From: Enterovirga sp.
GTDB taxonomy: Bacteria > Pseudomonadota > Alphaproteobacteria > Rhizobiales > Beijerinckiaceae
Direction: 5' to 3'
Assembly: GCF_028290205.1 (NCBI RefSeq)
Contig: NZ_JAQGKF010000009.1
Span: 1-64,000, forward strand
DNA length: 64,000 nucleotides
Both the position numbers and the translations under genes were made by a program. The notes beneath the pieces were generated by a model, which was not told where the DNA came from, did not search any database, and worked only from the letters and a program-made list of their open reading frames with translations. Every line of letters starts with the position of its first letter. Within the stretch, counting starts at the first letter, position 1. Below, in pieces: positions 34,797 through 58,579 of this stretch.

Positions 34797-35735
34797 GTGT
34801 CCATCCGCGATTTGCGCACCTTTCTGGCCATCGCCGAAGGCGGCTCCTTCGCGGTGGCGGCCCGTGCCGTCCGCCGCACGCAATCGGCCGTGACCGTGCA
34901 GATGCGGGCGCTCGAGGAAGAGGTCGGCGCCACCCTGTTCGACCGCAGCCGGCGCCCTCCCCTGCTGAACGAGGCCGGCCGCGCGCTCGTGCCCCGGGCT
35001 CGGGAGGCGGTAGAAGCCTATGACCGGCTGTTCCAGCCGGCCGGCGAGCGCCTCGTCGAGGGCCACTTGCGGCTCGGCGCGGTGCCGAGCGTGGTCACGG
35101 GCGTGCTGCCGCGCGCTCTGGTGGCGCTGCGGGAGCGTTATCCTGGTCTCCACGTGGAGCTCGCGATGGGCCCGTCGAAGGAGCTGGTCGAGCGCCTGGA
35201 GCGCGGCCTCCTGGACGCCGCCATCGTCAGCGACCTTCTGGAAGGCGGCGCCGGCCTGACCTGGTCCCCCTTCGCCCGCGAGCCGCTCGTGCTGATCGCG
35301 CCGGCCGACGCCCCGGCCCGCAAGCCCGAGGAGCTGATCGCGAGCTATCCCTTTATCCGCTACACGCGTCAGGCCTGGGTCGGGCAGACCATCGATCGTT
35401 TGCTGAAGCGACGCCGCCTGAAGCCGCGGGAAAGCATGACGCTCGACACGCTCGAAGCCGTGACGACCATGGTGCGGCACGGGCTCGGCGTCTCGATCGT
35501 GCCGCTGCGCTCCAGTGGCGACGCGCCAGGGCCCGCCATCCGGGCCGTGCACTTCCCCGGTGCGCCGACCTGGCGCACGCTGGGCCTCGTGCACCAGCCC
35601 AGCCATCCCAAGGCCACGCTGGCAGAGGTGCTGCTCACCGCGCTCAAGGCGGCGGAGGACCCGGCCAAGCCGGTCGCCCCCCCTGGGCGCCAGCCGCGCA
35701 GCCCGAAACGCGCCCGGCCGGTGCCAGCAACCTGA
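34797..35735 (+). CDS. LysR-family transcriptional regulator
   Basis: 312 residues from GTG 34797 (GGAG 11 bases upstream). N-terminal winged helix-turn-helix IRDLRTFLAIAEGGSFAVAARAVRRTQSAVTVQMRALEEEVGATLFDR, then the periplasmic-binding-like effector domain (LRLGAVPSVVTGVLPRAL; MVRHGLGVSIVPL). A Pro/Arg-rich tail of about 25 residues follows the domain. It lies between the divergent receptor/ThDP genes and the co-directional sdh-fum-like operon, with dyads at both ends. So it probably senses the substrate or an intermediate and controls both. The effector is not known. Confidence 0.93.
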   Translation: MSIRDLRTFLAIAEGGSFAVAARAVRRTQSAVTVQMRALEEEVGATLFDRSRRPPLLNEAGRALVPRAREAVEAYDRLFQPAGERLVEGHLRLGAVPSVVTGVLPRALVALRERYPGLHVELAMGPSKELVERLERGLLDAAIVSDLLEGGAGLTWSPFAREPLVLIAPADAPARKPEELIASYPFIRYTRQAWVGQTIDRLLKRRRLKPRESMTLDTLEAVTTMVRHGLGVSIVPLRSSGDAPGPAIRAVHFPGAPTWRTLGLVHQPSHPKATLAEVLLTALKAAEDPAKPVAPPGRQPRSPKRARPVPAT

Positions 35736-35739
35736 AAGA

Positions 35740-35759
35740 AATCGAATTCTCGATTGAGA
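35740..35759. promoter_or_regulatory. Overlapping palindromes upstream of the sdh-fum-like operon
   Basis: Two dyads overlap here: AATCGA-N4-TCGATT (35740-35755) and TCTC-N4-GAGA (35748-35759). They sit right after the lysR stop and 45-64 bases before the iron-sulfur subunit ATG, in an AT-rich stretch. The reverse strand reads CTCAATCG, sharing CTCAATC with the dyad upstream of lysR. The following run of T residues (TTCGTTTTTTC) could alternatively make this a weak terminator for lysR. Operator is the preferred reading. Confidence 0.4.
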
Positions 35760-35803
35760 GATATTCGTTTTTTCATAAGAAGAGCGGGTGCTATGGACGC
35801 GCC

Positions 35804-36538
35804 ATGACCCCTTCCGGCAAACCCGATCTCTCGGTCTCGATCTGGCGCGGCGGCGCGGACGGCGCCTACCGGACCTACTCGGTCCCGAGCCGCGACAGCC
35901 AGACGGTGCTCGACGTCGTCACCTACGTGCAGCGCCACCTCGACCCGACCCTGTCCTACCGCTTCGCCTGCCGGGTTGGCATGTGCGGCTCCTGCGCCAT
36001 GACCGTGAACGGCCGTCCGCGCTGGACCTGCCGGACGCATGTGAGCCGGGTCGCCAAGGGCGACAAGCTGACGGTCGGGCCGCTCGAGAACCTGCCGGTC
36101 GTGAAGGACCTCGCCACCGACATGCGGCCGTTCTTCGAGAAGTGGCAGGACGCAAAGGGCGTCTTCGAGCCGTCCAAGACCCGCGACGACGCGATCGAGC
36201 CGATCCGGCCGGACACACGCCAGCGCCAGCTCGCCGATGCCGGGGTCGAATGCATCAATTGCGGCGTCTGCTATGCGGCCTGCGACACGGTGAAGTGGAA
36301 CACCGACTATCTCGGCCCGGCGGCCCTGAACCGGGCCTGGACGCTGGCCAACGACGTCCGCGACGCCGGCCAGACGGAGCGGCTCCAGGCCGTGGCCTCG
36401 GGGGGCGGTTGCCATGCCTGCCATTCGCACCAATCCTGCCAGGAGCATTGCCCGCAGACGCTGAACCCGACCGCCTCCATCGCGGGTCTCAAGCGGCTGA
36501 CCGCGCTCGCCTACCTGCGCGGCGAGATCGAGGCATGA
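35804..36538 (+). CDS. Succinate dehydrogenase/fumarate reductase-like iron-sulfur subunit
   Basis: 244 residues. The N-terminal ferredoxin domain has CRVGMCGSCAMTVNG plus a later cysteine (WTCRTHV) for a [2Fe-2S] cluster. The C-terminal domain has CINCGVCYAAC ([4Fe-4S]) and CHACHSHQSCQEHCPQTLNP ([3Fe-4S] type). CINCGVCYAAC resembles fumarate reductase FrdB more than SdhB. An extra cysteine (CHAC) precedes the third cluster motif, and the residue after the second cluster is Asp not Pro. It passes electrons between the flavoprotein and membrane subunits. First gene of the operon; its stop overlaps the next start (ATGA). Confidence 0.9.
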   Translation: MTPSGKPDLSVSIWRGGADGAYRTYSVPSRDSQTVLDVVTYVQRHLDPTLSYRFACRVGMCGSCAMTVNGRPRWTCRTHVSRVAKGDKLTVGPLENLPVVKDLATDMRPFFEKWQDAKGVFEPSKTRDDAIEPIRPDTRQRQLADAGVECINCGVCYAACDTVKWNTDYLGPAALNRAWTLANDVRDAGQTERLQAVASGGGCHACHSHQSCQEHCPQTLNPTASIAGLKRLTALAYLRGEIEA

Positions 36539-36867
36539 ACGTCCGGCTCTATGTCTGGCAGCGCGGCACCGCGGCCCTGATGGCGCCGCTGGTGCTGGTC
36601 CATCTGGCGGTGATCTTCTACGCCACCCGGCAGGGCCTCACGGCCGCCGACATCCTCGGCCGCACGCGCGGCAGCATCACCTGGGGCCTGTTCTACGGCG
36701 TGTTCGTGCTGGCCGCCGCCATCCACGCCTCGATCGGGCTGCGCAACATCCTGGTGGAATGGGTGCCGGGGCTCCGCAGCCGGGCCGCAGCCCTGATCTC
36801 GACCGCCTTCGGGGCCGTGCTGGTCGCGCTCGGCGCCCGGGCCGTCGCCGCCGTGGTGCTCGGATGA
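36535..36867 (+). CDS. Small membrane anchor subunit of the Sdh/Frd-like complex
   Basis: 110 residues from the ATG of an ATGA overlap; hidden inside a longer track ORF. Three hydrophobic helices: GTAALMAPLVLVHLAVIFYA, WGLFYGVFVLAAAIHASIGL and SRAAALISTAFGAVLVALGARAVAAVVL. Histidines in LVHLAVI and AAIHASIGLRN are placed like heme or quinone-site residues of Sdh/Frd anchors. It is probably one of two anchors binding quinone. The gene order iron-sulfur - anchor - anchor - flavoprotein is the reverse of the common sdhCDAB order. Confidence 0.78.
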   Translation: MNVRLYVWQRGTAALMAPLVLVHLAVIFYATRQGLTAADILGRTRGSITWGLFYGVFVLAAAIHASIGLRNILVEWVPGLRSRAAALISTAFGAVLVALGARAVAAVVLG

Positions 36868-37214
36868 GCGTCGGCGCCCTCTCCCGCCGGCGCAATGCGC
36901 TCTGGTACGCGGCCCTGGTGCATCGCCTGTCCGGGCTCGGCCTCGCGGTGTTTCTGCCGCTGCATTTCCTGACGCTCGCCCTTGCGGTCGAGGATGGCGC
37001 CCGGCTCGACGGCTTTTTCCGCTTCGCCGACATGCCGGCCGTGAAGCTCGGCGAGACCGGGCTCGTGTTCCTGCTGGCTGTCCATTTCCTGGGCGGGCTC
37101 CGGATCCTCTTCGTCGAGAACTTCACCTGGCGCGGCAATCAGGCGAAGCTCGCCAGCGCGGCCGGCGGCCTCGCCATGCTCCTGGCCTTCGTGTTCCTGA
37201 TCAGGGTGCTGTGA
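36864..37214 (+). CDS. Cytochrome b556-like anchor subunit (SdhC-like)
   Basis: 116 residues, ATGA overlap with the preceding gene and GTGA overlap with the next. The signature LVHRLSGLGLAVFLPLHFLTLAL is the SdhC motif H-R-x-S-G, and VHFLGGLRILFVEN supplies a second conserved histidine. Three membrane helices are predicted. Together with the preceding small subunit it would bind heme b and quinone, linking the complex to the respiratory chain. That makes the operon a membrane-bound dehydrogenase, not a soluble oxidase. Confidence 0.83.
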   Translation: MSVGALSRRRNALWYAALVHRLSGLGLAVFLPLHFLTLALAVEDGARLDGFFRFADMPAVKLGETGLVFLLAVHFLGGLRILFVENFTWRGNQAKLASAAGGLAMLLAFVFLIRVL

Positions 37215-38947
37215 TGCTGGAGCGCCTGCAGACCGACATCCTGATCCTCGGCTCCGGCGGCGCCGGGCTCTTTGCCGCGCTCCATGCCCACGCGGCCGCG
37301 CCCGATCTGTCCATCACGCTCGCCACCAAGGGCCTGCTCGGCAAGTGCGGCTGCACCCGCATGGTCCAGGGCGGCTACAACGTGGCGCTGAATCCCGGGG
37401 ATTCGATCGAGCGCCATTTCATGGACACGATCGAGGGCGGCAAATGGCTGCCCGACCAGGACCTCGCCTGGACGTTGGTGACCCAGGCCGTGGTGCGGGT
37501 GCGGGAACTCGAAAACGAGGTCGGCTGCTTTTTCGACCGCAATCCGGACGGGACGCTGCACGGCAAGGCCTTCGCCGGCCAGACCTTCGACCGCACGGTG
37601 CACAAGGGCGACCTCACCGGCATCGAGATCATCAATCGGCTGATGGAGCAGGTCTGGAAACGGCCGGGCGTGGCCAAGCTCGAGGAGCACCGCGCGCTGG
37701 CCCTGATCCCGGCCCGGGACGGCGCCTCGGTCTCCGGCGTGCTGATGATCGACGTCCGGACCGGCGGGCTTCGCTTTGTCGAAGCCAAGGCGGTGCTGAT
37801 GGCGACCGGCGGCGGGCCGACCATGTACCGCTACCATACGCCGTCCGGCGATAAGAGCATGGACGGGCTCAGCATGGCGCTCCGCGCCGGGCTGAAGCTG
37901 CGCGACATGGAGATGGTCCAGTTCCACCCGACCGGGCTCCTGGCCGGTCCGGACACCCGCATGACCGGGACGGTGCTGGAGGAAGGGCTGCGGGGCGCCG
38001 GCGGCTACCTGCTGGACGGCGGCATGCGGCGCTTCATGGCCGATTACGACCCGAAGCTGGAACGGGCGACGCGCGACGTGGTCTCGCGCTCGATCTATGC
38101 CGAGATGAAGGCCGGCCGCACCACCCCGAACGGTGGCGTCTACATCCAGATGAGCCATCTCGGGCCCAAGGACGTAGCCAAGAAGTTCAAGGGCATGGTC
38201 GACCGCTGCCGGGATTGCGGCTTCGACCTCGCCGGCGGGCTCGTCGAGGTGGTGCCGACCGCGCATTACTTCATGGGCGGCGTGCAGTGCCGGCCCGACA
38301 CCTCGACCGAGTGGCCGGGCCTGTTCGTGGCGGGCGAGGATGCGAGCGGCATGCACGGCGCCAACCGCCTCGGCGGCAACGGCGTGGCCAATTCCACCGT
38401 GTTCGGCGGCATCGCCGGTGACGTGATGCCGGGCTGGATCGCCGCCCATCCGGGCCGGCGCGCGCCCGACGAGGACGTGCTGGCGGCCGAGATCGCCCGG
38501 GCCCAGCATCCCTTCGGCAAGACACCCGGCAACGTCCACGTCCTGCGCGAGCGGCTGATGGACCTGATGTGGGACGAGGTCGGCGTGGTGCGGGATGCGG
38601 CAGGGATCGCGCGCGGCCTCGCCGGGCTCGATGCGCTGGAGGCCGAGCTGCTGGAGACGGGGGTCGCGGACGGCGACCGCGCCTTCAATCTCACCTGGCA
38701 CGACTGGCTGAACCTGCGCTCGCTCGTGGAGACGAGCCGGGTCATCGCCCTCGCGGCCGGCCGGCGGGAGAATTCGCGCGGCGCCCATTTCCGCTCCGAC
38801 TTCCCGGAGCCCGGCGATCTCGACACCTCCACCTACACGGTGGTCCGGCAAGGTGCGGCGGGGCTCGCCATCACCGAGGAGCCGGTCCAGTTCACCATTG
38901 TGCGTCCGGGGCAGTCGCTTCTGGACGTGAAGGAGGCCGCAGAATGA
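37211..38947 (+). CDS. Succinate dehydrogenase/fumarate reductase-like flavoprotein subunit
   Basis: 578 residues. FAD-binding LILGSGGAGLFAALHAHA, then KCGCTRMVQGGYNVAL in the place of the usual RSHTxxAQGG. The histidine that normally carries covalent FAD is therefore cysteine here. Substrate residues are kept: EMVQFHPTG, EEGLRGAGGYL (RGEGG in SdhA), PTAHYFMGG, MHGANRLGGNG, and the tail NSRGAHFRSDFPE. So it should handle a dicarboxylate as SdhA/FrdA do, with FAD perhaps non-covalent. A standard sdhA is not expected beside fumarase and LysR genes, so this is likely a specialised paralogue. GTG start overlaps the previous stop. Confidence 0.9.
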   Translation: MMLERLQTDILILGSGGAGLFAALHAHAAAPDLSITLATKGLLGKCGCTRMVQGGYNVALNPGDSIERHFMDTIEGGKWLPDQDLAWTLVTQAVVRVRELENEVGCFFDRNPDGTLHGKAFAGQTFDRTVHKGDLTGIEIINRLMEQVWKRPGVAKLEEHRALALIPARDGASVSGVLMIDVRTGGLRFVEAKAVLMATGGGPTMYRYHTPSGDKSMDGLSMALRAGLKLRDMEMVQFHPTGLLAGPDTRMTGTVLEEGLRGAGGYLLDGGMRRFMADYDPKLERATRDVVSRSIYAEMKAGRTTPNGGVYIQMSHLGPKDVAKKFKGMVDRCRDCGFDLAGGLVEVVPTAHYFMGGVQCRPDTSTEWPGLFVAGEDASGMHGANRLGGNGVANSTVFGGIAGDVMPGWIAAHPGRRAPDEDVLAAEIARAQHPFGKTPGNVHVLRERLMDLMWDEVGVVRDAAGIARGLAGLDALEAELLETGVADGDRAFNLTWHDWLNLRSLVETSRVIALAAGRRENSRGAHFRSDFPEPGDLDTSTYTVVRQGAAGLAITEEPVQFTIVRPGQSLLDVKEAAE

Positions 38948-39906
38948 TCCCCCTCGCCTCCCTCCAGAGCACGGCCGAAGCCCTGATGGCCAAGGCGGCC
39001 ATCGAGATTCCGGACGATTACCTGGCCGGCCTGCGCCGCTGCGCCGACACCGAGAAGGGGGACCTGTCCGCCTTCGTGATCCAGGCGATGCTCGAGAACT
39101 ACGAGGCCGCCAAGGAGGACCGTCGCGCCATGTGCGGCGATACCGGCGTGCCGCGCTGGTATGTGAAATACGGCAACGAGGCCCGGGTCGAGGGAGGACC
39201 GGTCGGGCTCGAGGCGGCGCTTCGGCGCGCCACGGCCAGGGCGACCACGGGGGTGCCGCTGCGGCCGAACCGGGTGCACCCGCTCTGGCGCACCGACCAC
39301 AACAACAATGTCGGCATCAACGCGCCGGAGATCGAATACGCCTTCCATCCGGAGGGCGACTGGGTCGACCTGACCACCGTGCACAAGGGCGGGCTGTTCG
39401 GCTCCGATTACCGCATGCTGTTCCCGGGCGACGGCCTGGAAGGCATCCGGCGCTTCTTCCTCGACACGCTGATCGGCTTTGGCAAGCGCGGCCTCGCCTG
39501 CCAGCCGGCCATCGTCGGCATCGGGCTCGGCGGCTCCAAGGACGCCTGCATGGTGCTGGGCAAGCAGGCCTCCTGCCTGCGCACGGTCGGAAGCCGCAAT
39601 CCGGACCCGAAAATCGCCGCCATGGAGGAGGAGTTCCGCGAACTCGGCAATTCCATCGGCATGGGCGCCATGGGCTTCATGGGCTCGTCCATGGTGGTCG
39701 ATTGCCACATCGAGGTCGGCTACTGCCACACGGGCGGCATGCCGATGAGCGTGCACATGTTCTGCCTGTCCTCGCGCCGCGCCACCGCCCGCATCTTCCC
39801 GGACGGCCGGGCGGAGTTTCGGACCGACCCGGATTGGTTCACCGCGTATTCGCGCCGGGACACGGTGGAGTGGGGCGAGACGCCGCTGCTGGCGGCGGCG
39901 CAGTGA
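38944..39906 (+). CDS. Class I fumarase-like hydratase, alpha subunit
   Basis: 320 residues from the ATG of an ATGA overlap; buried in a longer track ORF. Family features: RRAMCGDTGVPRWYVKYGN, LRPNRVHPLWRTDHNNNVGINAPEIEY, GIGLGGSKDACMVLGKQA and DCHIEVGYCHTGGMPMSVHMFCLS. Three cysteines (CGDTG, DACM, DCHIE) fit the [4Fe-4S] cluster of iron-sulfur hydro-lyases. The split alpha/beta form also covers L-tartrate dehydratase, mesaconase and dimethylmalate dehydratase, so fumarate is not assured as substrate. Oxygen sensitivity is expected for this class. Confidence 0.87.
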   Translation: MIPLASLQSTAEALMAKAAIEIPDDYLAGLRRCADTEKGDLSAFVIQAMLENYEAAKEDRRAMCGDTGVPRWYVKYGNEARVEGGPVGLEAALRRATARATTGVPLRPNRVHPLWRTDHNNNVGINAPEIEYAFHPEGDWVDLTTVHKGGLFGSDYRMLFPGDGLEGIRRFFLDTLIGFGKRGLACQPAIVGIGLGGSKDACMVLGKQASCLRTVGSRNPDPKIAAMEEEFRELGNSIGMGAMGFMGSSMVVDCHIEVGYCHTGGMPMSVHMFCLSSRRATARIFPDGRAEFRTDPDWFTAYSRRDTVEWGETPLLAAAQ

Positions 39907-40577
39907 TGGCCGGCCCGCTGAAAACCGTCGAGCTGAACCTGCCGGCCTCCCGCGAGGCGCTGGCCGAGCTCGAGATCGGCACCGTCGTCTATTTGAACGG
40001 CCGGCTCTTCACGGCCCGGGAGGGCGTGTACAAGCGCGCCATCGAGGACGGGGCCGGCATGCCGGCCGCCAATGTCGATCTCGGCACGGCCAACTTCCAC
40101 TGCTCGCCCGCCGCCGTGATCGAGCCGGACGGCCGCTTCAATGTCGGGGCGGTGACGGCCACCGCCTCGTTCCGCTTCGCCAAGTGGCTGGACGGCTGGT
40201 TCAAGCTGTCGGGCTGCAACATCATCATCGGCAAGGGCGGCATGACGTCGGAGATCTACCGCGACGTCTTCGTGCCCCATGGCGCCATCTACCTGACCAC
40301 GGTCGGCTACGGCACGGGCGCGCTCCTCGGGCGCGGCATCAAGGACGTGCCGGGCGTGTACTGGAAGGACGAGCTCGGCCTCGCGCAGGCCGTGTGGGTG
40401 CTGGACGTGGAGCGGTTCGGCCCGTTCATCGTGGAAAGCGACCTCGCCGGCAATTCGCTGTTCGAGCGCGAGAACGCCAAGATCGCGCCCGGTCTGGCCC
40501 GGCTCTACGAGGGCACCCGGCCGGCCACGCTGCGCCGCTACGGCGAAACCGACGACAAGACCGACGAGGTCATCTGA
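39906..40577 (+). CDS. Class I fumarase-like hydratase, beta subunit
   Basis: 223 residues; start overlaps the alpha-subunit stop (TGATG). Motifs VELNLPASREALAELEIGTVVYLNGRLFTAREGVYKRAIEDG, NFHCSPAAVIEPDGRFNVGAVTATASFRF and IIIGKGGMTSEIYRDVFVPHGAIYLTTVGYGTGALLGRGI match the C-terminal fumarase/TtdB domain. Together with the alpha subunit it forms one active site that adds water across the double bond of a fumarate-type acid. In the operon it follows the dehydrogenase, so the order is dehydrogenation then hydration, as in the TCA cycle. The tail is acidic. Confidence 0.87.
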   Translation: MAGPLKTVELNLPASREALAELEIGTVVYLNGRLFTAREGVYKRAIEDGAGMPAANVDLGTANFHCSPAAVIEPDGRFNVGAVTATASFRFAKWLDGWFKLSGCNIIIGKGGMTSEIYRDVFVPHGAIYLTTVGYGTGALLGRGIKDVPGVYWKDELGLAQAVWVLDVERFGPFIVESDLAGNSLFERENAKIAPGLARLYEGTRPATLRRYGETDDKTDEVI

Positions 40578-40582
40578 GCGTG

Positions 40583-40594
40583 GCTCGCCCGAGC
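40583..40594. repeat. Hairpin repeat GCTCGCCCGAGC, copy 1
   Basis: A 12-base hairpin six bases after the fumarase beta stop and before the exporter gene; with one flanking base each side the stem is GGCTC/GAGCC. An identical 12-mer follows the exporter gene (41385). In the operon mRNA it could pause ribosomes or polymerase or mark message processing. No U tract follows. Confidence 0.35.
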
Positions 40595-40646
40595 CCCGTC
40601 GCCCCGTGATGTGCTTCCGCTTTCCTCCGCTGGCCGAGGCCGAGCC

Positions 40647-41384
40647 GTGCTGATCGCTGGCCTGTCGCTGAAGCTGCTGCTGGTGCTCTGGGCGGGCGCC
40701 TTCGTGGGGGCGCTCGCGGCCGGAGGAGCCGGCTTCGCCTTCGCCCTCTCGGCCTCGGCGATCTGGCTCCATGCGCTGGATCCCGTGCGGACCACGATGC
40801 TGGTCGTGACCTGCGGCACCATCCTGCATTTCGTCCTCGTCTGGCCGCTCAGGCGGTCCATCGACGGCCCGCGGCTCGCCCCCTTCGCGCTGGGCGGGCT
40901 CCTGGGTATTCCGATCGGCGTCTGGGTGCTGACCGTCGCGAACGTGGACGGGGTGAAGTTCGCGCTCGGGATCTTCCTGGTCGCCTATGGCGGCTACGCG
41001 CTGATCGCGCCGCGCCTTCCCGTGATCTCGGCCGGGGGGCGGGGCGCCGACACGGCGATCGGCTTCGTCGGGGGCGTGCTGGGCGGGATCGGCGGCTTCT
41101 CCGGCGTGGTTCCGACCATCTGGACCCAGCTCCGCGGCTGGACCAAGGAGCGGGCGCGGGGGGTCTACCAGCCCTTCATCCTGCTGGCGCACGCCGCCAC
41201 CGTGCTCGTGCTCGGCACGGTGAGCCTGGACCTCAGCGGGGCCGTGATGGTCGCTGCCGTGCTGCCCGCCCTCGCGGCCGGCACCTGGGTCGGCTGGGGC
41301 ATCTACGGGCGGCTGAACGAGCAGAACTTCCGCCGCCTGCTGGCCTTCATGCTGCTCGCCTCGGGCCTGACGCTCGCGCTCTGA
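40647..41384 (+). CDS. TauE/SafE-family membrane exporter
   Basis: A polytopic protein of about 245 residues with eight predicted helices; typical TauE/SafE elements are AGAFVGALAAGGAGFAF, IGFVGGVLGGIGGFSGVVPTIW and LPALAAGTWVGWGIYGRL. Characterised members export sulfite or sulfoacetate/other organic anions. The start is uncertain: GTG 40647 (MLIAGLSLKLLL) is preferred to GTG 40611. It follows the fumarase genes on the same strand and ends the run. The link to sulfur anions is by family only and suggests, without proving, that the pathway releases an anion such as sulfite. Confidence 0.85.
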   Translation: MLIAGLSLKLLLVLWAGAFVGALAAGGAGFAFALSASAIWLHALDPVRTTMLVVTCGTILHFVLVWPLRRSIDGPRLAPFALGGLLGIPIGVWVLTVANVDGVKFALGIFLVAYGGYALIAPRLPVISAGGRGADTAIGFVGGVLGGIGGFSGVVPTIWTQLRGWTKERARGVYQPFILLAHAATVLVLGTVSLDLSGAVMVAAVLPALAAGTWVGWGIYGRLNEQNFRRLLAFMLLASGLTLAL

Positions 41385-49945: not shown

Positions 49946-51232
49946 TCACGTCGGCGGCTGCGGCCGGGGCCCGGCGGCCTGGAGCGAACGCGGGGCGCCC
50001 GCCGGCCGCTCTCCGGCCGGCGCGGCAGCTTTGCGGCCGAAGCTCAGCGCCTTGGGCCGCTTGGTCCGAAACTGGCCGCGCTCGGCGGCAACGAAGACGA
50101 GAGCCACGACGGCGACCGCGGCCGGCCACCACGTCTCGCCCCGATCCAGGCCCGAGAGCGTCAGCGCGAGCCCCGTGGCGAAGGCGGCGACGAGGCCCGG
50201 CAGCAAGGGGCCGAAATGCCCGGCCGCGGCCCGGATCCAGGCCCAGAGCGCGAAGGCGGCCGCCCCGACGCCGACGATGCCGAGATCGTACCACAGCACC
50301 AGCGCGGGCGTGCCGACGGGTCCGCCGGCAAGGGAATGCGTCACCCCGCGCCGAAAGCTGCCGAGGCCGTGGCCGGTGAGGAGCCGGGCGGGGTCCTGCA
50401 GGATGGCGGTGCGCCAGCCCTCCATCGCCGCCGCCCATTGTGGAAACCGGCCGGCGGCGGCCCCATGCAGGCCGAGCACCACCAGGAGGGGAGCCAGCAG
50501 CAACGCAAGGGCCAGCAGCAGGGCTGCCCCGTCCGCGCCGCGGCGCCCGAGTAGCTGCACCAGCCCGTACAGCACGGCCCCGGCCGCGAAGCTGAGCGCA
50601 GCCGCAGGTTCGGGCCCGAGCGCGGCCGCGACCGCGACGGCGGCCGCGAGACCGATCGCCTGCCCGTCGCGCCCTCGCGACCGCAGCCAGGCGATCGCCG
50701 GCCAAGCGTACAGCACGAGCACGCACACGCCGCGCTCGAGGTAGCGGTCCGCCTCGCCCTCCGGTGGCGAATCGTCGAAGGCCGCCAGGGCCGCCACGGC
50801 CAGCGCCGCCGCGGCCGCGCCGATGGGCGCGAGATAAAGGTTGGCCGACCTCATCCGGTCGGGCAGCGCCAGGTATCCGGCGAGGGCCACGGCCACCACC
50901 ATCAGCGTCGCGACCAGCCGCGAGGCGGTCGGACCCGGTGATGGCGTCCACAGCAGCGACAGCGTGGACCAGCCGGCCAGCACGGCCAGCGCCACAGTGA
51001 CCGGTGACGTGGCGAGCCGGGAAACATTGTCCCGCACCGGGCGCGCCGCGTCGTCCAGCGTGGCCGCCGTGCAGATGAGGGCAAGGCTGATCGCGGCCGC
51101 GATCACGAGCCCGGGTGCAGAGAGGAGGGCTCCGAACGGGAGCCCGAGCAGAAGGATCAGGAACCCGACGCGCCTGAGCAGCGCCGCCGAATCGCGGGCC
51201 GGATCGACCGCCGGGGGGGGAAGGCGCGCCAT
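49946..51232 (-). CDS. O-antigen ligase-like polytopic membrane protein
   Basis: About 428 residues with 10-12 hydrophobic segments and a Wzy_C-type loop: LLTGHGLGSFRRGVTH ... TPALVLWYDLGIVGVGAAAFALW. This parallels the HxxxL-x-x-D/E-LG-x-x-G pattern of O-antigen ligases and polymerases. Very Ala/Leu-rich; the basic tail (FRTKRPKALSFGRKAA) is cytoplasmic. Start ATG 51232 is chosen over the GTG at 51247. It is the second such protein in the window (the first at 7556), 24 kb from the polysaccharide locus. Substrate unknown. Confidence 0.7.
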   Translation of the reverse strand: MARLPPPAVDPARDSAALLRRVGFLILLLGLPFGALLSAPGLVIAAAISLALICTAATLDDAARPVRDNVSRLATSPVTVALAVLAGWSTLSLLWTPSPGPTASRLVATLMVVAVALAGYLALPDRMRSANLYLAPIGAAAAALAVAALAAFDDSPPEGEADRYLERGVCVLVLYAWPAIAWLRSRGRDGQAIGLAAAVAVAAALGPEPAAALSFAAGAVLYGLVQLLGRRGADGAALLLALALLLAPLLVVLGLHGAAAGRFPQWAAAMEGWRTAILQDPARLLTGHGLGSFRRGVTHSLAGGPVGTPALVLWYDLGIVGVGAAAFALWAWIRAAAGHFGPLLPGLVAAFATGLALTLSGLDRGETWWPAAVAVVALVFVAAERGQFRTKRPKALSFGRKAAAPAGERPAGAPRSLQAAGPRPQPPT

Positions 51233-51337
51233 CGGGATCGCGAACACGAGAGCCAGGGCCGGAGCGGCCCTGGCGCGGACTCTATCGCGGGCTCGTGAGC
51301 AGGGCTGTAGGCCCCGCGCAACACCCGCCGGAGGACG

Positions 51338-52228
51338 TCAGGCGAGCCCCCTGCCGTCGCGCAGAAAGCGCACGATGGCCGAATAGTCCTCGCCGCCGTG
51401 CCCTTCCTCCTGGAATCGCCCGTACAGCGCGGCTGCGGCCGCGCCGAGCGGCGTCGCGGCGCCAGCCGAGCGGGCCGCCTCCTGGGAGAGGCGCAGGTCC
51501 TTCAGCATCAGATCGGTCGCGAAGCCGGGCCGGTAATCCGAATTGGCCGCGCTGGTCGGGACGGGCCCCGGCACGGGGCAATGCGTGGTCAGGGCCCAGC
51601 ACGAGCCGGACGAGGTCGAGGCCACATCGAACAGGGCCTGATGCGAGAGGCCGAGCTTCTCGGCCAGCACGAAGGCCTCGGAAATGCCGATCATCGAGAT
51701 GCCGAGGATCATGTTGTTGCAGATCTTGGCCGCCTGACCCGCGCCGGCCTCGCCGCAATGCACGACCCGCCGGCCCATCTTGGCCAGGATCGGCTCGCCG
51801 CGGGCGAAGGCATCCGGGGAGCCGCCGACCATGAGCGTGAGGGTGGCGCCCTTGGCTCCGACCGTGCCGCCCGAGACGGGCGCGTCGAGCGACATCAGCC
51901 CGGCCGCCGCCGCGACCGCATGGGCGCGCCGCGCGCTGTCCACGTCGATGGTGGAACAATCGACCAGCAGCGCGCCCGCGGGCACCGCCGGAACGATCTC
52001 GGACCAGACCTGGAGCACATGCTTGCCGGCCGGCAGCATGGTGATCACGACCTCGGCCCCGGCGACCGCCTCGGAGCCGGAGCCGGCGACCGCGATGCCC
52101 GCGGCCCGGGCCGTCTCGCACAGCGCCGGCACCACGTCGAAACCGACCACCTGGTGGCCCGCCTGGACCAGATTGGCGGCCATCGGGCCGCCCATGTTGC
52201 CGAGCCCGATAAAGGCGATGGTGGTCAT
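51338..52228 (-). CDS. mmsB: 3-hydroxyisobutyrate dehydrogenase
   Basis: Oxidises 3-hydroxyisobutyrate to methylmalonate semialdehyde in valine breakdown. 296 residues: NAD-binding IAFIGLGNMGGPMAANLVQAGHQVVGFD, substrate motif LDAPVSGGTVGAKGATLTLMVGG and the catalytic lysine in GAGQAAKICNNMILG. GGGAGGA sits directly before the ATG at 52234 and six bases before the ATG at 52228, so 52228 is the likelier start. Lies 89 bases downstream of the isobutyryl-CoA dehydrogenase gene, its pathway neighbour; mmsA is 4 kb away. Confidence 0.93.
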   Translation of the reverse strand: MTTIAFIGLGNMGGPMAANLVQAGHQVVGFDVVPALCETARAAGIAVAGSGSEAVAGAEVVITMLPAGKHVLQVWSEIVPAVPAGALLVDCSTIDVDSARRAHAVAAAAGLMSLDAPVSGGTVGAKGATLTLMVGGSPDAFARGEPILAKMGRRVVHCGEAGAGQAAKICNNMILGISMIGISEAFVLAEKLGLSHQALFDVASTSSGSCWALTTHCPVPGPVPTSAANSDYRPGFATDLMLKDLRLSQEAARSAGAATPLGAAAAALYGRFQEEGHGGEDYSAIVRFLRDGRGLA

Positions 52229-52317
52229 CAACATTCCTCCCTGTTGCCGGGCTTCAAGACAGATGGCCGGCTCGGAGGCAAGACGTCGCAGCGGCGAGAC
52301 TGTGCCGGCGAGGCCCG

Positions 52318-53460
52318 TCAGCGTCCCACGAGAGCCCTGGCGATGATCACGCGCATGATCTCGTTCGTGCCTTCCAGGATCTGATGCACACGCAGGTCGC
52401 GGACGATCTTCTCGATCCCGTATTCAGCGAGATAGCCGTAGCCGCCATGCAGCTGCAGGGCCTCGTTGGCGACCTCGAACCCGACATCCGTGGCGAAGCG
52501 CTTCGCCATGGCGCAGCGCTGGGTGGTGTCCGCGTCGCCGCGGTCGTAGGCCGCCGCCGCCGCATAGAGCATCATGCGGGCCGCCTCGAGTTCCGTCGCC
52601 ATGTCGGCGAGCCGGAATTGCAGCGCCTGGAAGGCGTCGAGCCGCTGCCCGAAGGCCTTGCGCTCGCGCATGTAGCCGAGCGTCTTGTCGAGCGCGGCCT
52701 GCGCGCCGCCGAGCGAACAGGCCCCGATATTGAGCCGGCCGCCGTCGAGGCCGGCCATGGCGATCCGGAAGCCGATGCCCTCGTCACCGAGCCGGTTCGC
52801 GACCGGGACGCGGCATTCGTCGAAGACGACCTGCCGGGTGGGCTGCGCGTTCCAGCCCATCTTGCGCTCGTTCGGTCCGAAGGACAGTCCGGGCGCATCG
52901 CCGGGAACCACGAGGGTGGAGATGCCCTTCGGCCCCTCCCCGCCGGTCCGGAGCATGACGACGTAGAGGTCGGCCGCACCCGCCCCCGAGATGAACTGCT
53001 TGGAGCCGTTCAGGACGTAGTGGTCGCCGTCCAGCCGGGCCGTGGTCCGGAGCGCCGCCGCGTCCGAGCCCGAGCCAGGCTCGGTCAGGCAATAAGAGGC
53101 GAGCAGGTCCATGGTGCAGAGGCCCGGCAGCCAGCGTCCGCGCTGCTCCTCCGTGCCCCAGCGGTCGATCATCCAGGCCGACATGTTGTGGATGGAGATA
53201 TACGCCGACACGGTCGGGCAGCCGGTGGCCAGGGCCTCGAAGATCAACGCCGCATCGAGCCGGGTCAGCGCCGAGCCGCCGACATCCTCGCGGATGTAGA
53301 TGCCGCCCATGCCGAGCGCCGCGGCCTCGCGCATCACATCGACCGGAAAATGCTTCTCCTCGTCCCAGCGCAGCGCATGCGGGGCCAGCTTCTCGGCTGC
53401 GAAATCGCGGGCCATGTCGCGGATGGCGACCTGGTCCTCGGGCAGGGCAAACAGGCTCAT
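52318..53460 (-). CDS. Isobutyryl-CoA dehydrogenase (ACAD8-like)
   Basis: 380 residues of the acyl-CoA dehydrogenase family: [69 protein letters not shown], and [38 protein letters not shown]. The glutamate of ILEGT is the expected catalytic base. Overall wording matches isobutyryl-CoA dehydrogenase, and the adjacent mmsB and nearby mmsA fit valine catabolism. 2-methylbutyryl- or short-chain acyl-CoA is an alternative substrate. Confidence 0.88.
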
Positions 53461-53549
53461 TCAGGTCTCCACGCGGGCTCGGTCGCGAGCCTCGCCTTCT
53501 CTGTCCCGGACACCCCGGCCGCAGCACCGCCCCGAGGTTCAGGGGCGCT

Positions 53550-54182
53550 TCAGCCGGCGTTGCGGCCGCGCCATTCCTCGATGAAGCCGATGCAGGTCTC
53601 GGCGTCGGACACGTCGACATAGCGGCGGCCGATGTCGCGGAGGTTGTCGCGATGCGGCCCCTCCTCATGGTCGCCGACGCAATCCTCCGGCACGATCGTG
53701 CGAAAGCGCCACGAGAAGCTGTCGATCGAGGTCGCCCGGATGCAGCCGCTCGTGGTGCAGCCCGTGACGATGACGGTGTCCACGCCCTCCTTCAGGAAAT
53801 ACGGCGCGGCGCCGGTCTGGAAGAAGATTGAGGGCCCGGATTTCGTGACCGCGAGGTCATAGGAGGGATCGTAGATCTCGGGGTCGATCTCGGTTCCGGG
53901 CGCGCCGTGGAGAAAGGTCTCCCGCACCGCGCTGATCTTCCAATGCGGCATCTCGCGCTCGTTGAGATAGGCCGTGTTGCAGGTCGCGACCGGGACGCCG
54001 GCGCGCCGCGCCGCCTCGAGCAACCGACGGGTGTTCTGCACGGCCCGCATGATCAGGGGCGCCCCGCCGAGCGGGTAGCGGGCGTCCGTGAAGCCCGTCT
54101 GGAAGTCGACGACGACGATGCCGGGCTTGCGGCCGAAACCGACCGGCGTGTCGCCGTAGGTGCGGCGCGAATAATCGTCCAT
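53550..54182 (-). CDS. Cysteine hydrolase, N-carbamoylsarcosine amidase-like
   Basis: 210 residues of the isochorismatase-like hydrolase fold, from ATG 54182 (MDDYSRRTYGDTPVGFGRKPGIVVVDFQTGFTD). The triad is visible: Asp in VVVDFQ, Lys in LAVTKSGPSIFF, Cys in VTGCTTSGCIRAT. FFQTGAAPYFLKEGVDTVIVTGCTTSGC and the late DCVGDHEEGPHRDNL resemble N-carbamoylsarcosine amidohydrolases, but related nicotinamidases and other amidases are possible. Divergent from the CoA-transferase gene; no creatinine genes nearby. The track start (126 codons longer) is a shadow. Confidence 0.8.
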   Translation of the reverse strand: MDDYSRRTYGDTPVGFGRKPGIVVVDFQTGFTDARYPLGGAPLIMRAVQNTRRLLEAARRAGVPVATCNTAYLNEREMPHWKISAVRETFLHGAPGTEIDPEIYDPSYDLAVTKSGPSIFFQTGAAPYFLKEGVDTVIVTGCTTSGCIRATSIDSFSWRFRTIVPEDCVGDHEEGPHRDNLRDIGRRYVDVSDAETCIGFIEEWRGRNAG

Positions 54183-54327
54183 GTCTGAACTCCTGGCCGC
54201 GTCATGGTGGCGCGTGCCGACCCACCGGGCAATCCCGGATTCCTGCATGCGAGCATGTCCGGCCCGGTCTTTCCACGGGGGCCCGGCTTCCGTAGCGTCC
54301 GGGCACCATAAAGGGAGGCACGACAAG

Positions 54328-55602
54328 GTGATGGCGGGGGGGCGCGAGGAGCGATCGGCACAGGCCGGAGCCCTGGAAGCAGGCGGAGCCACAGAGGCGC
54401 CGCTCGCTGGGTTGAGGGTGGTCGAGGTCTCGGCCTTCGTGGCCGCGCCGCTCGGCGGCATGACACTGGCCCAGCTCGGCGCGGAGGTGATCCGCATCGA
54501 CCCAATCGGCGGCAACATCGACATCGGCCGCTGGCCGCTCGCGCCGGGCGGCACCAGCATCTACTGGGCCAGCCTGAACAAGGGGAAGCGCTCGGTCGCG
54601 CTGGCGCTGAACACCCCGGAGGGCCAGGAGCTCGCGAGCGCCCTGATCTGCGCGCCGGGGCCGGACACCGGCGTCGTGCTGACCAACCTGCAGGCCCGCG
54701 GCTGGCTCGGCTACGACACCCTTGCGCAGCGGCGGCCCGACCTGATCATGGCCGAGCTGACCGGCAATCCCGATGGGTCGAGCGCGGTCGATTACACGGT
54801 GAATTGCGCCAGCGGCTTTCCGACCGCGACCGGGGCGACCGAGGAGCCGGTCAACCATGTGCTGCCGGCCTGGGACGTGGCGGCGGGCCTCTATCTCACC
54901 ACCGCGATCCTGGCGGCCGACCGCATGCGGTCGCGCGGCCGCGGCGGCCAGCGCATCACCCTCGCCCTCGCCGACGTGATGCTCGCCACCGTGGCGAACC
55001 TCGGCTACGTGGCCGACGTGCAGGTCAACGGCGACAGCCGGGGCGCCCTCGGCAACGACCTCTACGGCGCCTTCGGGCGCGATTTCCGCACCGCGGACGG
55101 CCGGTCCGTGATGGTGGCTGCCTTCTCAAACCGCCAGTGGCGTGCCCTCGGCGAAGCGACCGGGCTCGCGGCCAAGCTCGAGCTGATCGGCCCGCTGCTC
55201 GATGTCGACATGACCACGGAAGGCGGGCGCTTCGAGGCCCGGGACGCCATCGCGGCCGTGCTGGCGCCCTGGTTCGCGGCGCGCGGGCTCTCCGAGGTGC
55301 GGGCCGCCCTCGATGGGCGGGGCGTGCTCTGGGGGCCCTACCAGAGCTTTCAGCAACTCGTGCAGGAGGACGCGCGCTGCTCGCCCGCGAACCCGCTGTT
55401 CGGCGAGATCGACCAACCGGGCGTTGGTCGCGTTCTGGCCCCGCGCTTCCCGCCGGGGCTACTGGGACGACCCGCCCCTCAGCCGGCGCCGCCGCACGGC
55501 AGCGACACGGAAGCGGTGCTTCGGTCCGTGCTGGGCCTCAGCGCCCGGGAGGTGGACGGATTGCGCCAGCGCCGGGTGATCGGCGGCGCGCCGCCGGCCT
55601 AG
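54328..55602 (+). CDS. mct: Family III CoA transferase, probable mesaconyl-CoA C1-C4 CoA transferase (2-methylfumaryl-CoA isomerase)
   Basis: 424 residues from GTG 54328 (GGGAGG nine bases upstream). The sequence recalls Mct of the 3-hydroxypropionate bicycle: SAFVAAPLGGMTLAQLGAEVIRIDPIGG, SAVDYTVNCASGFP, VNHVLPAWD, LYGAFGRDFRTADGRSVMVAAF. The Asp of LPAWD lies where family III enzymes keep the nucleophile (about 183, or 163-165 without the N-terminal tail). Mct moves CoA within mesaconyl-CoA from C1 to C4. The other bicycle genes are not in the window. The identification rests on memory of the family, so another CaiB/BaiF enzyme remains possible. Confidence 0.75.
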   Translation: MMAGGREERSAQAGALEAGGATEAPLAGLRVVEVSAFVAAPLGGMTLAQLGAEVIRIDPIGGNIDIGRWPLAPGGTSIYWASLNKGKRSVALALNTPEGQELASALICAPGPDTGVVLTNLQARGWLGYDTLAQRRPDLIMAELTGNPDGSSAVDYTVNCASGFPTATGATEEPVNHVLPAWDVAAGLYLTTAILAADRMRSRGRGGQRITLALADVMLATVANLGYVADVQVNGDSRGALGNDLYGAFGRDFRTADGRSVMVAAFSNRQWRALGEATGLAAKLELIGPLLDVDMTTEGGRFEARDAIAAVLAPWFAARGLSEVRAALDGRGVLWGPYQSFQQLVQEDARCSPANPLFGEIDQPGVGRVLAPRFPPGLLGRPAPQPAPPHGSDTEAVLRSVLGLSAREVDGLRQRRVIGGAPPA

Positions 55603-55625
55603 GCCGCGACACAGAACCGAGCTGG

Positions 55626-55645
55626 GCGGGGCGCCGGAGCCCCGC
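55626..55645. terminator. Hairpin between convergent genes, terminator-like
   Basis: Perfect inverted repeat GCGGGGC/GCCCCGC with a six-base loop, 24 bases after the CoA-transferase stop and before the end of the convergent secreted protein gene. No T-run. Terminator function is inferred from position. Confidence 0.4.
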
Positions 55646-55671
55646 TGCCGGGCGGCGAGGCCCGACCGAGC

Positions 55672-56034
55672 CTATTGCAGCGCCTTCACTTCGCAGCGTG
55701 CGTAATCCCCGCTCGCCTGCACAAAGGCGTTGAGCTGGCCGATATAGCTCTCGGCCGCCGCCCTGAAGCCCGGCAAGGCCGCATTATAGGCCTTGATGGC
55801 GTCGTTGTAGCTGTGGCTTTCCCAGCCGAGGCAGCCCGGCGAGCCGGGTTTCGCGTCCGCGCAGGCCGGCTTGGCCGGGAGGGCGGGCTTTGCCGGCCGC
55901 GACGCGGGATCGGGCGGAACGGGCGGCACGCAGGCCGCCCAGACCGGTTGCACGGACAGCGCAGCCGCGAGCCAGGTGGCCGCGAGGACGCGGCGTCGCC
56001 GCGCCCCCCGTCCGGCTCTCCCGGCGGCCGCCAC
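55672..56034 (-). CDS. Secreted hypothetical protein, Pro-rich linker
   Basis: 120 residues with an Arg-rich start and hydrophobic core (RRRRVLAATWLAAALSVQPVWA), so a secreted or periplasmic protein. Next a Pro/Ala/Lys linker (CVPPVPPDPASRPAKPALPAKPAC), then a helical C-terminus (AIKAYNAALPGFRAAAESYIGQLNAFVQASGDYARCEVKALQ) with four cysteines in total. I do not recognise a named family. GTG start; four bases after the mmsA stop on the same strand, so probably read through from mmsA though unrelated in function. Confidence 0.65.
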   Translation of the reverse strand: MAAAGRAGRGARRRRVLAATWLAAALSVQPVWAACVPPVPPDPASRPAKPALPAKPACADAKPGSPGCLGWESHSYNDAIKAYNAALPGFRAAAESYIGQLNAFVQASGDYARCEVKALQ

Positions 56035-56038
56035 CGGC

Positions 56039-57535
<1,497 letters not shown>

Positions 57536-57571
57536 GGAAATGATCCTTTCAGTGTCGTTGGGCGGCCGATC

Positions 57572-58567
57572 TCAGGCGGCGCGCACGATGTCGAATTGTC
57601 CGGTCTTGCGGAAACGGGTGAGGTAGCCCGGCACGATCGCCTCCAGGGCCTGGGGCACGATGCCGAGCCCCTGCAGCGTGCGGCCCTCCGCGACCGCGGC
57701 GTCGGACACGACGTTGTCGGTCTGGAGCAGCTCGACCTGGTCGCGCGTCAGCTTCACGGCGTTGGGCAGGAGCCCGAGCGTCAGGGCGTCGACGATCTCG
57801 AGCAGCCGGGCCTGCGCCCGCGCCGCCCCGAGCGGCATCGGCACGAGAAGGCGCCGGCGCTCTGTCACCTGGAGCACATAGGACACGAGTTCGCGCAGCG
57901 TGCGGATCTCCGGCCCGCCGAGCTCGTAGACCTGTCCGCCCCGCGCCGCGCCGTCGACGGCCTTGGCGACCGCCTCGGCCACGTCGCCGACAAAGACCGG
58001 CTGGAAGCGCGTGTCGGCGCCGGCAAGCGGCAGCACCGGCAGGGCGCGGGCCAGCGAGGCGAAGCGGTTGAAGAAGCTGTCGCCCTGCCCGAACAGCAGC
58101 GAGGGACGGACGATCACGGCGTCCGGCCGCGCGCTGAGCACGGCCTGCTCGCCCTGCGCCTTGCTGCGGGCGTAGACGGAGGGCGAGGTGAGATCGGCCC
58201 CGAGGGCCGAGACATGGACCAGCGGCACGCCGGCGGCGGTCGCCTCGGCAATCACCCGGGGGCCCGCGGCCTGGACTTCATGAAAGCCCTGGCGCCCGGT
58301 TTCCTGGAGGATGCCGACCAGGTTCACCACCGCGTCCGCGCCCGCGATGGCGCTTCGGACCGACTCGTCGAAGCGCAGATTCGCCTGCACGAGCTGGATC
58401 TGGCCGACCACGCCGAGAGGCTGGAGGAAGAAGCCCAGATTGGGCCGCCGCACGGCGACGCGGATCCGGTAGCCGCTGCGGGCGAGGTCGCGCACCACAT
58501 GCCGGCCGAGAAAGCCTGTGCCGCCGAACACCGTCACGAGCTTCGGCGATTGACGCATCGCGTCCAT
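57572..58567 (-). CDS. NDUFA9-like NAD(P)-binding protein
   Basis: 331 residues from ATG 58567 (MDAMRQSPKLVTVFGGTGFLGRHVVRDLARSGYRIRVAVRRP), with GGGAG eight bases upstream; the track ORF starts 108 codons too early. Atypical SDR with the GGTGFLG nucleotide loop, ADAVVNLVGIL, VHVSALGAD, SKAQGEQAVL and FQPVFVGDVAEAVAKAV. It resembles the complex I accessory subunit NDUFA9 and its bacterial homologues (often next to respiratory or quinone genes). No nuo gene here. A role in complex I assembly or another NAD(P)H-linked function is inference. Confidence 0.83.
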   Translation of the reverse strand: MDAMRQSPKLVTVFGGTGFLGRHVVRDLARSGYRIRVAVRRPNLGFFLQPLGVVGQIQLVQANLRFDESVRSAIAGADAVVNLVGILQETGRQGFHEVQAAGPRVIAEATAAGVPLVHVSALGADLTSPSVYARSKAQGEQAVLSARPDAVIVRPSLLFGQGDSFFNRFASLARALPVLPLAGADTRFQPVFVGDVAEAVAKAVDGAARGGQVYELGGPEIRTLRELVSYVLQVTERRRLLVPMPLGAARAQARLLEIVDALTLGLLPNAVKLTRDQVELLQTDNVVSDAAVAEGRTLQGLGIVPQALEAIVPGYLTRFRKTGQFDIVRAA

Positions 58568-58579
58568 GAGAGAGCTCCC

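Follow-up and report, generated by a model that had tools for sequence, protein, structure and literature searches.

Why would a gene whose product resembles 2-methylfumaryl-CoA isomerase (Mct), an enzyme familiar mainly from its key role in the 3-hydroxypropionate bi-cycle, lie among the valine-catabolism genes of an alphaproteobacterium? The question is posed by a locus of Enterovirga sp. (assembly GCF_028290205.1), located in the first 64,000 nucleotides of contig NZ_JAQGKF010000009.1, the whole stretch of DNA analysed here (hereafter, the window). We consider it likely that this gene, denoted mct, encodes an intramolecular coenzyme A (CoA) transferase of the Mct kind, which moves CoA between the C1 and C4 carboxylates of mesaconyl-CoA and/or methylsuccinyl-CoA, and that it was acquired horizontally. 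The gene is:

54331 to 55602, + strand: predicted Mct-like intramolecular CoA transferase (mct), 423-424 amino acids; a GTG start at 54328 is equally possible

Relationship of the encoded protein to Mct

The open reading frame is intact, with the stop codon ending at 55602, and a Shine-Dalgarno-like AGGGAGG lies upstream of the adjoining GTG (54328) and ATG (54331) codons. The product is a family III CoA transferase (PF02515), with the family fold recognized by sequence, that is about 51% identical over its full length to the enzymes of Chloroflexus (51%) and Roseiflexus castenholzii; against three further family III enzymes from its own genome, identity drops to about 28%. It is among the weaker of the 25 PF02515 matches in the genome, as expected for an outlying subfamily. 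The best matching solved structures are the Mct of Roseiflexus (7xkg) and Chloroflexus (8apq), at E ~1e-124, and the next family follows only at 1e-23. The top NCBIfam model is TIGR04253 (2-methylfumaryl-CoA isomerase), at 436 bits, whereas the models of intermolecular family III enzymes reach at most 98 bits.

Active-site residues were mapped in MAFFT alignment columns, using the Mct numbering of PMC9813914. In Mct, Asp165 is catalytic, Arg47 and Tyr136 bind the diacid, and Leu or Ile at position 43 narrows the tunnel, a signature conserved among the intramolecular enzymes (PMC9813914). The Mct-like protein retains Asp165, Arg47, Tyr136, Asp135 and Asn100, and carries Ile at position 43, so that the intramolecular signature is present. 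In the numbering of the 424-residue form, the catalytic residue is Asp183, Arg68 corresponds to Mct Arg47, Asp155 and Tyr156 to Asp135 and Tyr136, and Ile64 to Leu43. In the predicted reaction, the catalytic aspartate would attack a C5-branched dicarboxylyl-CoA (mesaconyl-CoA and/or methylsuccinyl-CoA), a beta-aspartyl thioester would retain CoA while the freed diacid flips in the closed pocket, and CoA would then be passed to the opposite carboxylate, in either direction between C1 and C4, without an outside acceptor.

In a tree of 82 rows, for which further family III enzymes from this genome served as the outgroup, all Mct-like proteins are monophyletic with the characterised Mct and split from the outgroup at 100/99. 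One row from the same genome (L015), which had a branch of 7.8 inside the Mct clade in a quick tree, was left out of the rebuilt tree as an artefact. The first-pass annotation, made from the sequence alone, had noted the close likeness to Mct, and structures, the top-scoring model, phylogeny and active site all bear this out; the placement with formyl-CoA or carnitine CoA transferases that it had raised as the contrary outcome is contradicted by the tree and by the far lower scores of those models. The Chloroflexus and Roseiflexus enzymes fall in one part of the tree, with a Gemmatimonadota metagenome-assembled genome (MAG) and others. The Mct-like protein belongs to a separate proteobacterial and actinobacterial clade (support 100/99), together with proteins of Azospirillum, Roseomonas-type Acetobacteraceae, Bosea, two MAGs labelled Betaproteobacteria and five Actinobacteria. 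It lies closest to a Herminiimonas MAG (L026) and to Actinobacteria, though this placement is not strongly supported.

Gene partners and the candidate substrate

Gene context was counted over 42 loci of this clade. A methylsuccinyl-CoA dehydrogenase (Mcd) gene lies within 6 genes of mct in 31 of them, mostly directly adjoining and on the same strand; the mct-linked Mcd of Azospirillum matches the Paracoccus Mcd (6es9) at 2e-218. The 550-residue acyl-CoA dehydrogenase that adjoins mct in relatives, which was considered as an ACAD-MaoC fusion, is this Mcd. In an Mcd tree, 38 mct-linked proteins, seven of which come from the Burkholderiales subclade, are separated by a branch with SH-aLRT support of 99 from 21 proteins of the ethylmalonyl-CoA pathway type, including that of Paracoccus. 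This points to a separate mct-linked group of Mcds, a conclusion that is weakened because the two sides sample different taxa. Our literature search found no report of the mct-mcd pairing, with many subscription papers beyond its reach; the occurrence of Mct outside Chloroflexota has already been reported.

Other partners are less frequent. A 2-oxoglutarate-dehydrogenase-like E1 is encoded in 11 of the 42 loci, several of which also contain SDR or GlcD-like 2-hydroxy acid dehydrogenase genes and TRAP or TctC binding-protein genes; in Pseudoroseomonas oryzae (L046), the E1, mct and mcd genes adjoin or overlap, with a GlcD-like 2-hydroxy acid dehydrogenase gene nearby. An Ich-type hydratase was found in six loci, an HpcH-type lyase in two and a class I fumarase in two. 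In the closest group, the actinobacterial and Herminiimonas loci, the neighbours are a thiolase, acyl-CoA dehydrogenases and an itaconyl-CoA-hydratase-like protein, with an HpcH-type lyase or a class I fumarase in single cases. Class I fumarases can hydrate mesaconate (PMC4682846). By their context, the partners in the clade fit branched C5-diacid chemistry, in which the enzymes would reposition CoA on methylsuccinyl- or mesaconyl-CoA to give the form on which Mcd or a C4 hydratase acts.

Three loci (L046, 4528-13979; L040, 2219-11718; L054, 1992-11194) combine mct, mcd, E1, 2-hydroxy acid dehydrogenase or SDR genes and TRAP or TctC genes, and represent a candidate catabolic module.

The prominence of Mcd raises a serious competitor, to which we assign somewhat less than an even chance, namely that the true substrate is methylsuccinyl-CoA and not mesaconyl-CoA. 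The enzyme would then convert methylsuccinyl-C4-CoA to methylsuccinyl-C1-CoA, the form oxidised by Mcd, and the C4 form would be supplied by a 2-oxo acid dehydrogenase or by beta-oxidation of 2-methyl-branched diacids. Mcd is the commonest partner in the clade and forms a group apart from the Mcds of the ethylmalonyl-CoA pathway, and the E1 genes, accompanied in several loci by 2-hydroxy acid dehydrogenase and transport genes, point the same way; judging from the chemistry, decarboxylation of a 4-methyl-2-oxoglutarate would yield the C4 thioester. In the closest loci, actinobacterial and Herminiimonas, a thiolase and an acyl-CoA dehydrogenase take their place. However, the Chloroflexus Mct was characterised with mesaconyl-CoA as the intramolecular substrate, neither E1 nor Mcd is encoded beside mct in the Enterovirga genome, and the separation of the Mcds may in part be an effect of unlike taxon sampling.

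The broader reading of these loci, which we offer only tentatively, is that the clade marks an undescribed catabolic module and that, in Enterovirga, mct reroutes mesaconyl-C1-CoA to acetyl-CoA and pyruvate. In the module, a 2-hydroxy or 2-oxo methyl-branched glutarate (or a 2-methyl-branched diacid) would be converted to methylsuccinyl-C4-CoA, the Mct-like enzyme would produce methylsuccinyl-C1-CoA, and the dedicated Mcd would yield mesaconyl-CoA, which would enter central metabolism. A large proteobacterial and actinobacterial branch of Mct with the same active site, its own Mcd and, in some loci, an E1 suggests that heterotrophs use CoA shifting more generally in handling branched C5 diacids. 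This would also provide a candidate substrate set for a large family, given that close relatives of mct were confirmed on at least 576 stretches.

In the Enterovirga genome itself (assembly ~96% complete, 256 contigs), the mesaconyl-CoA chemistry for which the first-pass annotation proposed to look is represented by several genes. Ccr (612 bits) and Mcd are encoded together on contig C147; congeners encode proteins that match this Mcd at 81-83% identity along most of its sequence, and the adjoining EamA and BrkB genes are often kept there, so that Ccr and Mcd constitute an ordinary ethylmalonyl-CoA set. Mcl is encoded on C142 (73% identity to a Chloroflexaceae Mcl over 338 residues), and CitE-type lyases on C155, C118 and C219. 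A single hydratase homologue of the itaconyl-CoA/mesaconyl-C4-CoA (Ich/Meh) type is encoded at C100:40167-40997 and matches the itaconyl-CoA hydratase 8khg at 5e-60, a type that also hydrates mesaconyl-C4-CoA (PMC12290011).

Mch was sought with a verified Mch protein of locus L102 (486 bits, E 5e-145 to MeaC of M. extorquens, 8hgn); the M. extorquens protein shares ~60% identity with both the Chloroflexus and the Rhodobacter Mch (PMC10164722). The search recovered no canonical Mch from the Enterovirga genome, only a 73-bit partial match, and its absence is only suggestive because the assembly is 96% complete and split into 256 contigs. Mch is present in a congener, G007, and in a family member, G016 (L195, 4847-5887; L205, 1420-2460), at 61-62% identity. 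PF19315 ("Mesaconyl-CoA hydratase") was rejected as a marker of Mch: the bona fide Chloroflexaceae Mch of L102 scores 54 bits against it, and nearly all of 60 relatives go undetected with it. A 336-residue double-MaoC protein on C144 was likewise rejected as Mch, matching neither 8hgn nor 4e3e.

Thus, of the ethylmalonyl-CoA pathway set, Ccr, Mcd and Mcl were found and Mch was not, within the limits of the assembly; of the second half of the 3-hydroxypropionate bi-cycle, an Mct-like protein, Mcl and an Ich/Meh-type hydratase are present, again with Mch not found, and the genes are scattered. The route by way of a C1-to-C4 shift suggested in the first-pass annotation stands as far as its parts are concerned, the hydratase and lyases all being present; their joint operation is what we infer. 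Under this scenario, the resident Ccr and Mcd would supply mesaconyl-C1-CoA, the Mct-like enzyme would convert it to mesaconyl-C4-CoA, and the resident hydratase and a citramalyl-CoA-cleaving lyase would produce acetyl-CoA and pyruvate, or the flux would run in reverse. On the broader, tentative reading given above, with Mch not found, the acquired enzyme would divert mesaconyl-C1-CoA from glyoxylate and propionyl-CoA towards acetyl-CoA and pyruvate.

Departures from the characterised enzymes

Several observations weigh against the assignment of mct as a horizontally acquired gene for an intramolecular transferase. The score of 436 bits is below the TIGR04253 equivalog cut-off of 725. Of the adenosine "cork" residues Ile74, Arg75, Phe101 and Arg104, which read Leu, Asn, Leu and Arg here, Arg104 alone is kept; with the grip on the CoA adenosine changed, the cork may seal less tightly and transfer may be less strictly intramolecular. 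Gly stands in place of Arg314. The protein's branch is long (0.46), and support for any particular sister is weak (63/70). The gene stands alone, with no Mcd, hydratase or lyase gene adjoining, and the insertion described below has a clean side-by-side flank in one congener (G007) of eight, with different genes in the gap elsewhere. The changes in the adenosine grip and at Arg314 are common across the clade and so seem to be a shared trait of its members, not a sign of decay; clade relatives in L034 and L050 score 540 and 505 bits on TIGR04253, likewise under 725. We leave the protein outside the TIGR04253 equivalog because both its score and its adenosine-grip residues fall short; nevertheless, its mode of action is most likely that of an Mct.

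The same residues bear on the possibility that the product of mct transfers CoA between molecules, for example as a succinyl-CoA:mesaconate or succinyl-CoA:citramalate CoA transferase, and thereby activates a free branched diacid. This is the usual mode of family III enzymes, the residues that seal Mct are altered, and succinyl-CoA:mesaconate CoA-transferase is among the lower NCBIfam matches. We nevertheless judge it unlikely: the signature of Leu/Ile43, Arg47 and Tyr136 is retained, the score gap relative to the intermolecular models is large, and in nine of the 42 clade loci a separate, ordinary family III CoA transferase could already perform the activation.

Compared with the Chloroflexus and Roseiflexus enzymes, the predicted intramolecular transferase of Enterovirga shares the fold and active site but differs in its separate clade, its score, the replacement of Arg75 and Phe101, and its location outside any 3-hydroxypropionate gene cluster. 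Mct homologues outside Chloroflexota are known from Ca. Accumulibacter, the gamma-1 symbiont of Olavius algarvensis and the partial 3-hydroxypropionate bi-cycle of Kentron (PMC9813914, PMC6593406). These, too, occur outside autotrophic 3-hydroxypropionate organisms, but the Kentron Mct was described with other bi-cycle enzymes (Mch, Meh and a lyase), whereas mct stands alone here and its clade pairs with Mcd. The itaconate/methylsuccinate degradation cluster consists of Ict, Ich, Ccl and methylsuccinyl-C4-CoA dehydrogenase (PMC12290011, PMC9875883). It shares hydratase and lyase chemistry via mesaconyl-C4-CoA and citramalyl-CoA, with an Ich homologue in the Enterovirga genome, but it starts at the C4-CoA level and can dispense with a shift between C1 and C4; nowhere does the text of PMC12290011 use the term Mct. 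ThnP, an intramolecular CoA transferase of naphthalene degradation (PMC11659651), follows a similar principle, moving CoA across to the second carboxylate to make the substrate accessible to an acyl-CoA dehydrogenase, but it is a member of another CoA transferase family, family I.

Partial 3-hydroxypropionate bi-cycle clusters, some of them outside Chloroflexota, were observed in L073, L096, L102 and L105 (Alphaproteobacteria, Magnetococcales, Chloroflexaceae and Gemmatimonadota MAGs), where Mct adjoins Mcl and/or Mch. In L146 (4027-10382; genome G059), genes for a class V aminotransferase, an HpcH-type lyase, a two-subunit succinyl/malyl-CoA-ligase-like enzyme, a FAS1-type hydratase and Mct stand in a row, which resembles a citramalate/mesaconate assimilation set joined to glyoxylate use.

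The insertion among valine genes

The features around mct are:

51338 to 52234, - strand: mmsB, 3-hydroxyisobutyrate dehydrogenase, HIBADH above cut-off; flank
52318 to 53460, - strand: isobutyryl-CoA dehydrogenase (ibd), closest to human ACAD8; left flank, kept in congeners and outside the mct module
53461 to 55673: 2.2-kb segment without counterpart in congener G007 (locus L155), holding the isochorismatase-like gene and mct
53550 to 54182, - strand: isochorismatase-like cysteine hydrolase, transcribed divergently from mct and likewise within the insertion
56039 to 57535, - strand: mmsA, CoA-acylating methylmalonate-semialdehyde dehydrogenase, MMSDH above cut-off; right flank

The flanking genes were correctly identified in the first-pass annotation, which left out the opposite strands, the isochorismatase-like gene in the gap, and the congeners that lack both genes there. 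The best copies of mmsA in the genus and family are 80-92% identical. The alignment with G007 is piecewise, covering 51153-53460 and 55674-58569 and leaving 53461-55673 unmatched; both sides align, and mmsB-ibd and mmsA are in the same order. At 1e-60, none of the eight congeners, two of which are essentially complete and six incomplete, contains an Mct homologue; three other relatives do, at 44-49% identity and in other subclades. We conclude that mct and the isochorismatase-like gene form an inserted segment, probably gained horizontally. Because the insertion is on the opposite strand and absent from a congener with the same valine genes, the place of mct in the valine cluster is incidental. 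Both genes would have entered the ibd-mmsA interval together.

The gap between ibd and mmsA (53461-56038; L151, L152, L154 and L155) appears to be a variable site: it holds other genes in congeners L151 and L154, and ibd and mmsB are missing there in L152 and L153. The isochorismatase-like gene was rejected as a conserved partner, with 30-32% matches in four loci, none adjoining mct.

A lone gene on a long branch, absent from congeners, could be a passenger without present use after its transfer. This is quite unlikely, as the gene is full-length and codon-adapted, with a GC content at third codon positions of 0.92, comparable to neighbouring genes, and keeps its active site and the positions invariant in the clade. 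It departs at 6 of ~145 such positions inside the protein, compared with 1-8 in other members, a range that indicates that the gene is not decaying.

The link to valine breakdown proposed in the first-pass annotation, which would tie the propionyl-CoA of this pathway to mesaconate handling, has the physical place of mct between ibd and mmsA in its favour but is highly improbable, given that mct is on the + strand and the valine genes on the - strand, that congeners keep these genes without the inserted segment, and that no conserved association with valine genes was seen around relatives in the 42 clade loci. Operon membership was accordingly rejected, and annotation of mct from its operon context would mislead, the valine neighbourhood being the site of an insertion.

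Elsewhere in the window lies the C4 region that the first-pass annotation had connected with mct; nothing observed connects it with the gene, though no test aimed at such a link was made. The interval 34797-41384 contains a LysR gene, an SDH-like set, a two-subunit class I fumarase/tartrate-dehydratase pair and a TauE/SafE permease gene:

35804: iron-sulfur subunit of the SDH-like set
36535: membrane subunit of the SDH-like set
36864: probable membrane subunit of the SDH-like set
37211: flavoprotein of the SDH-like set
38944 and 39903: split class I fumarase/tartrate dehydratase pair

This interval is possibly a dedicated dicarboxylate cluster, for tartrate, mesaconate or methylsuccinate.
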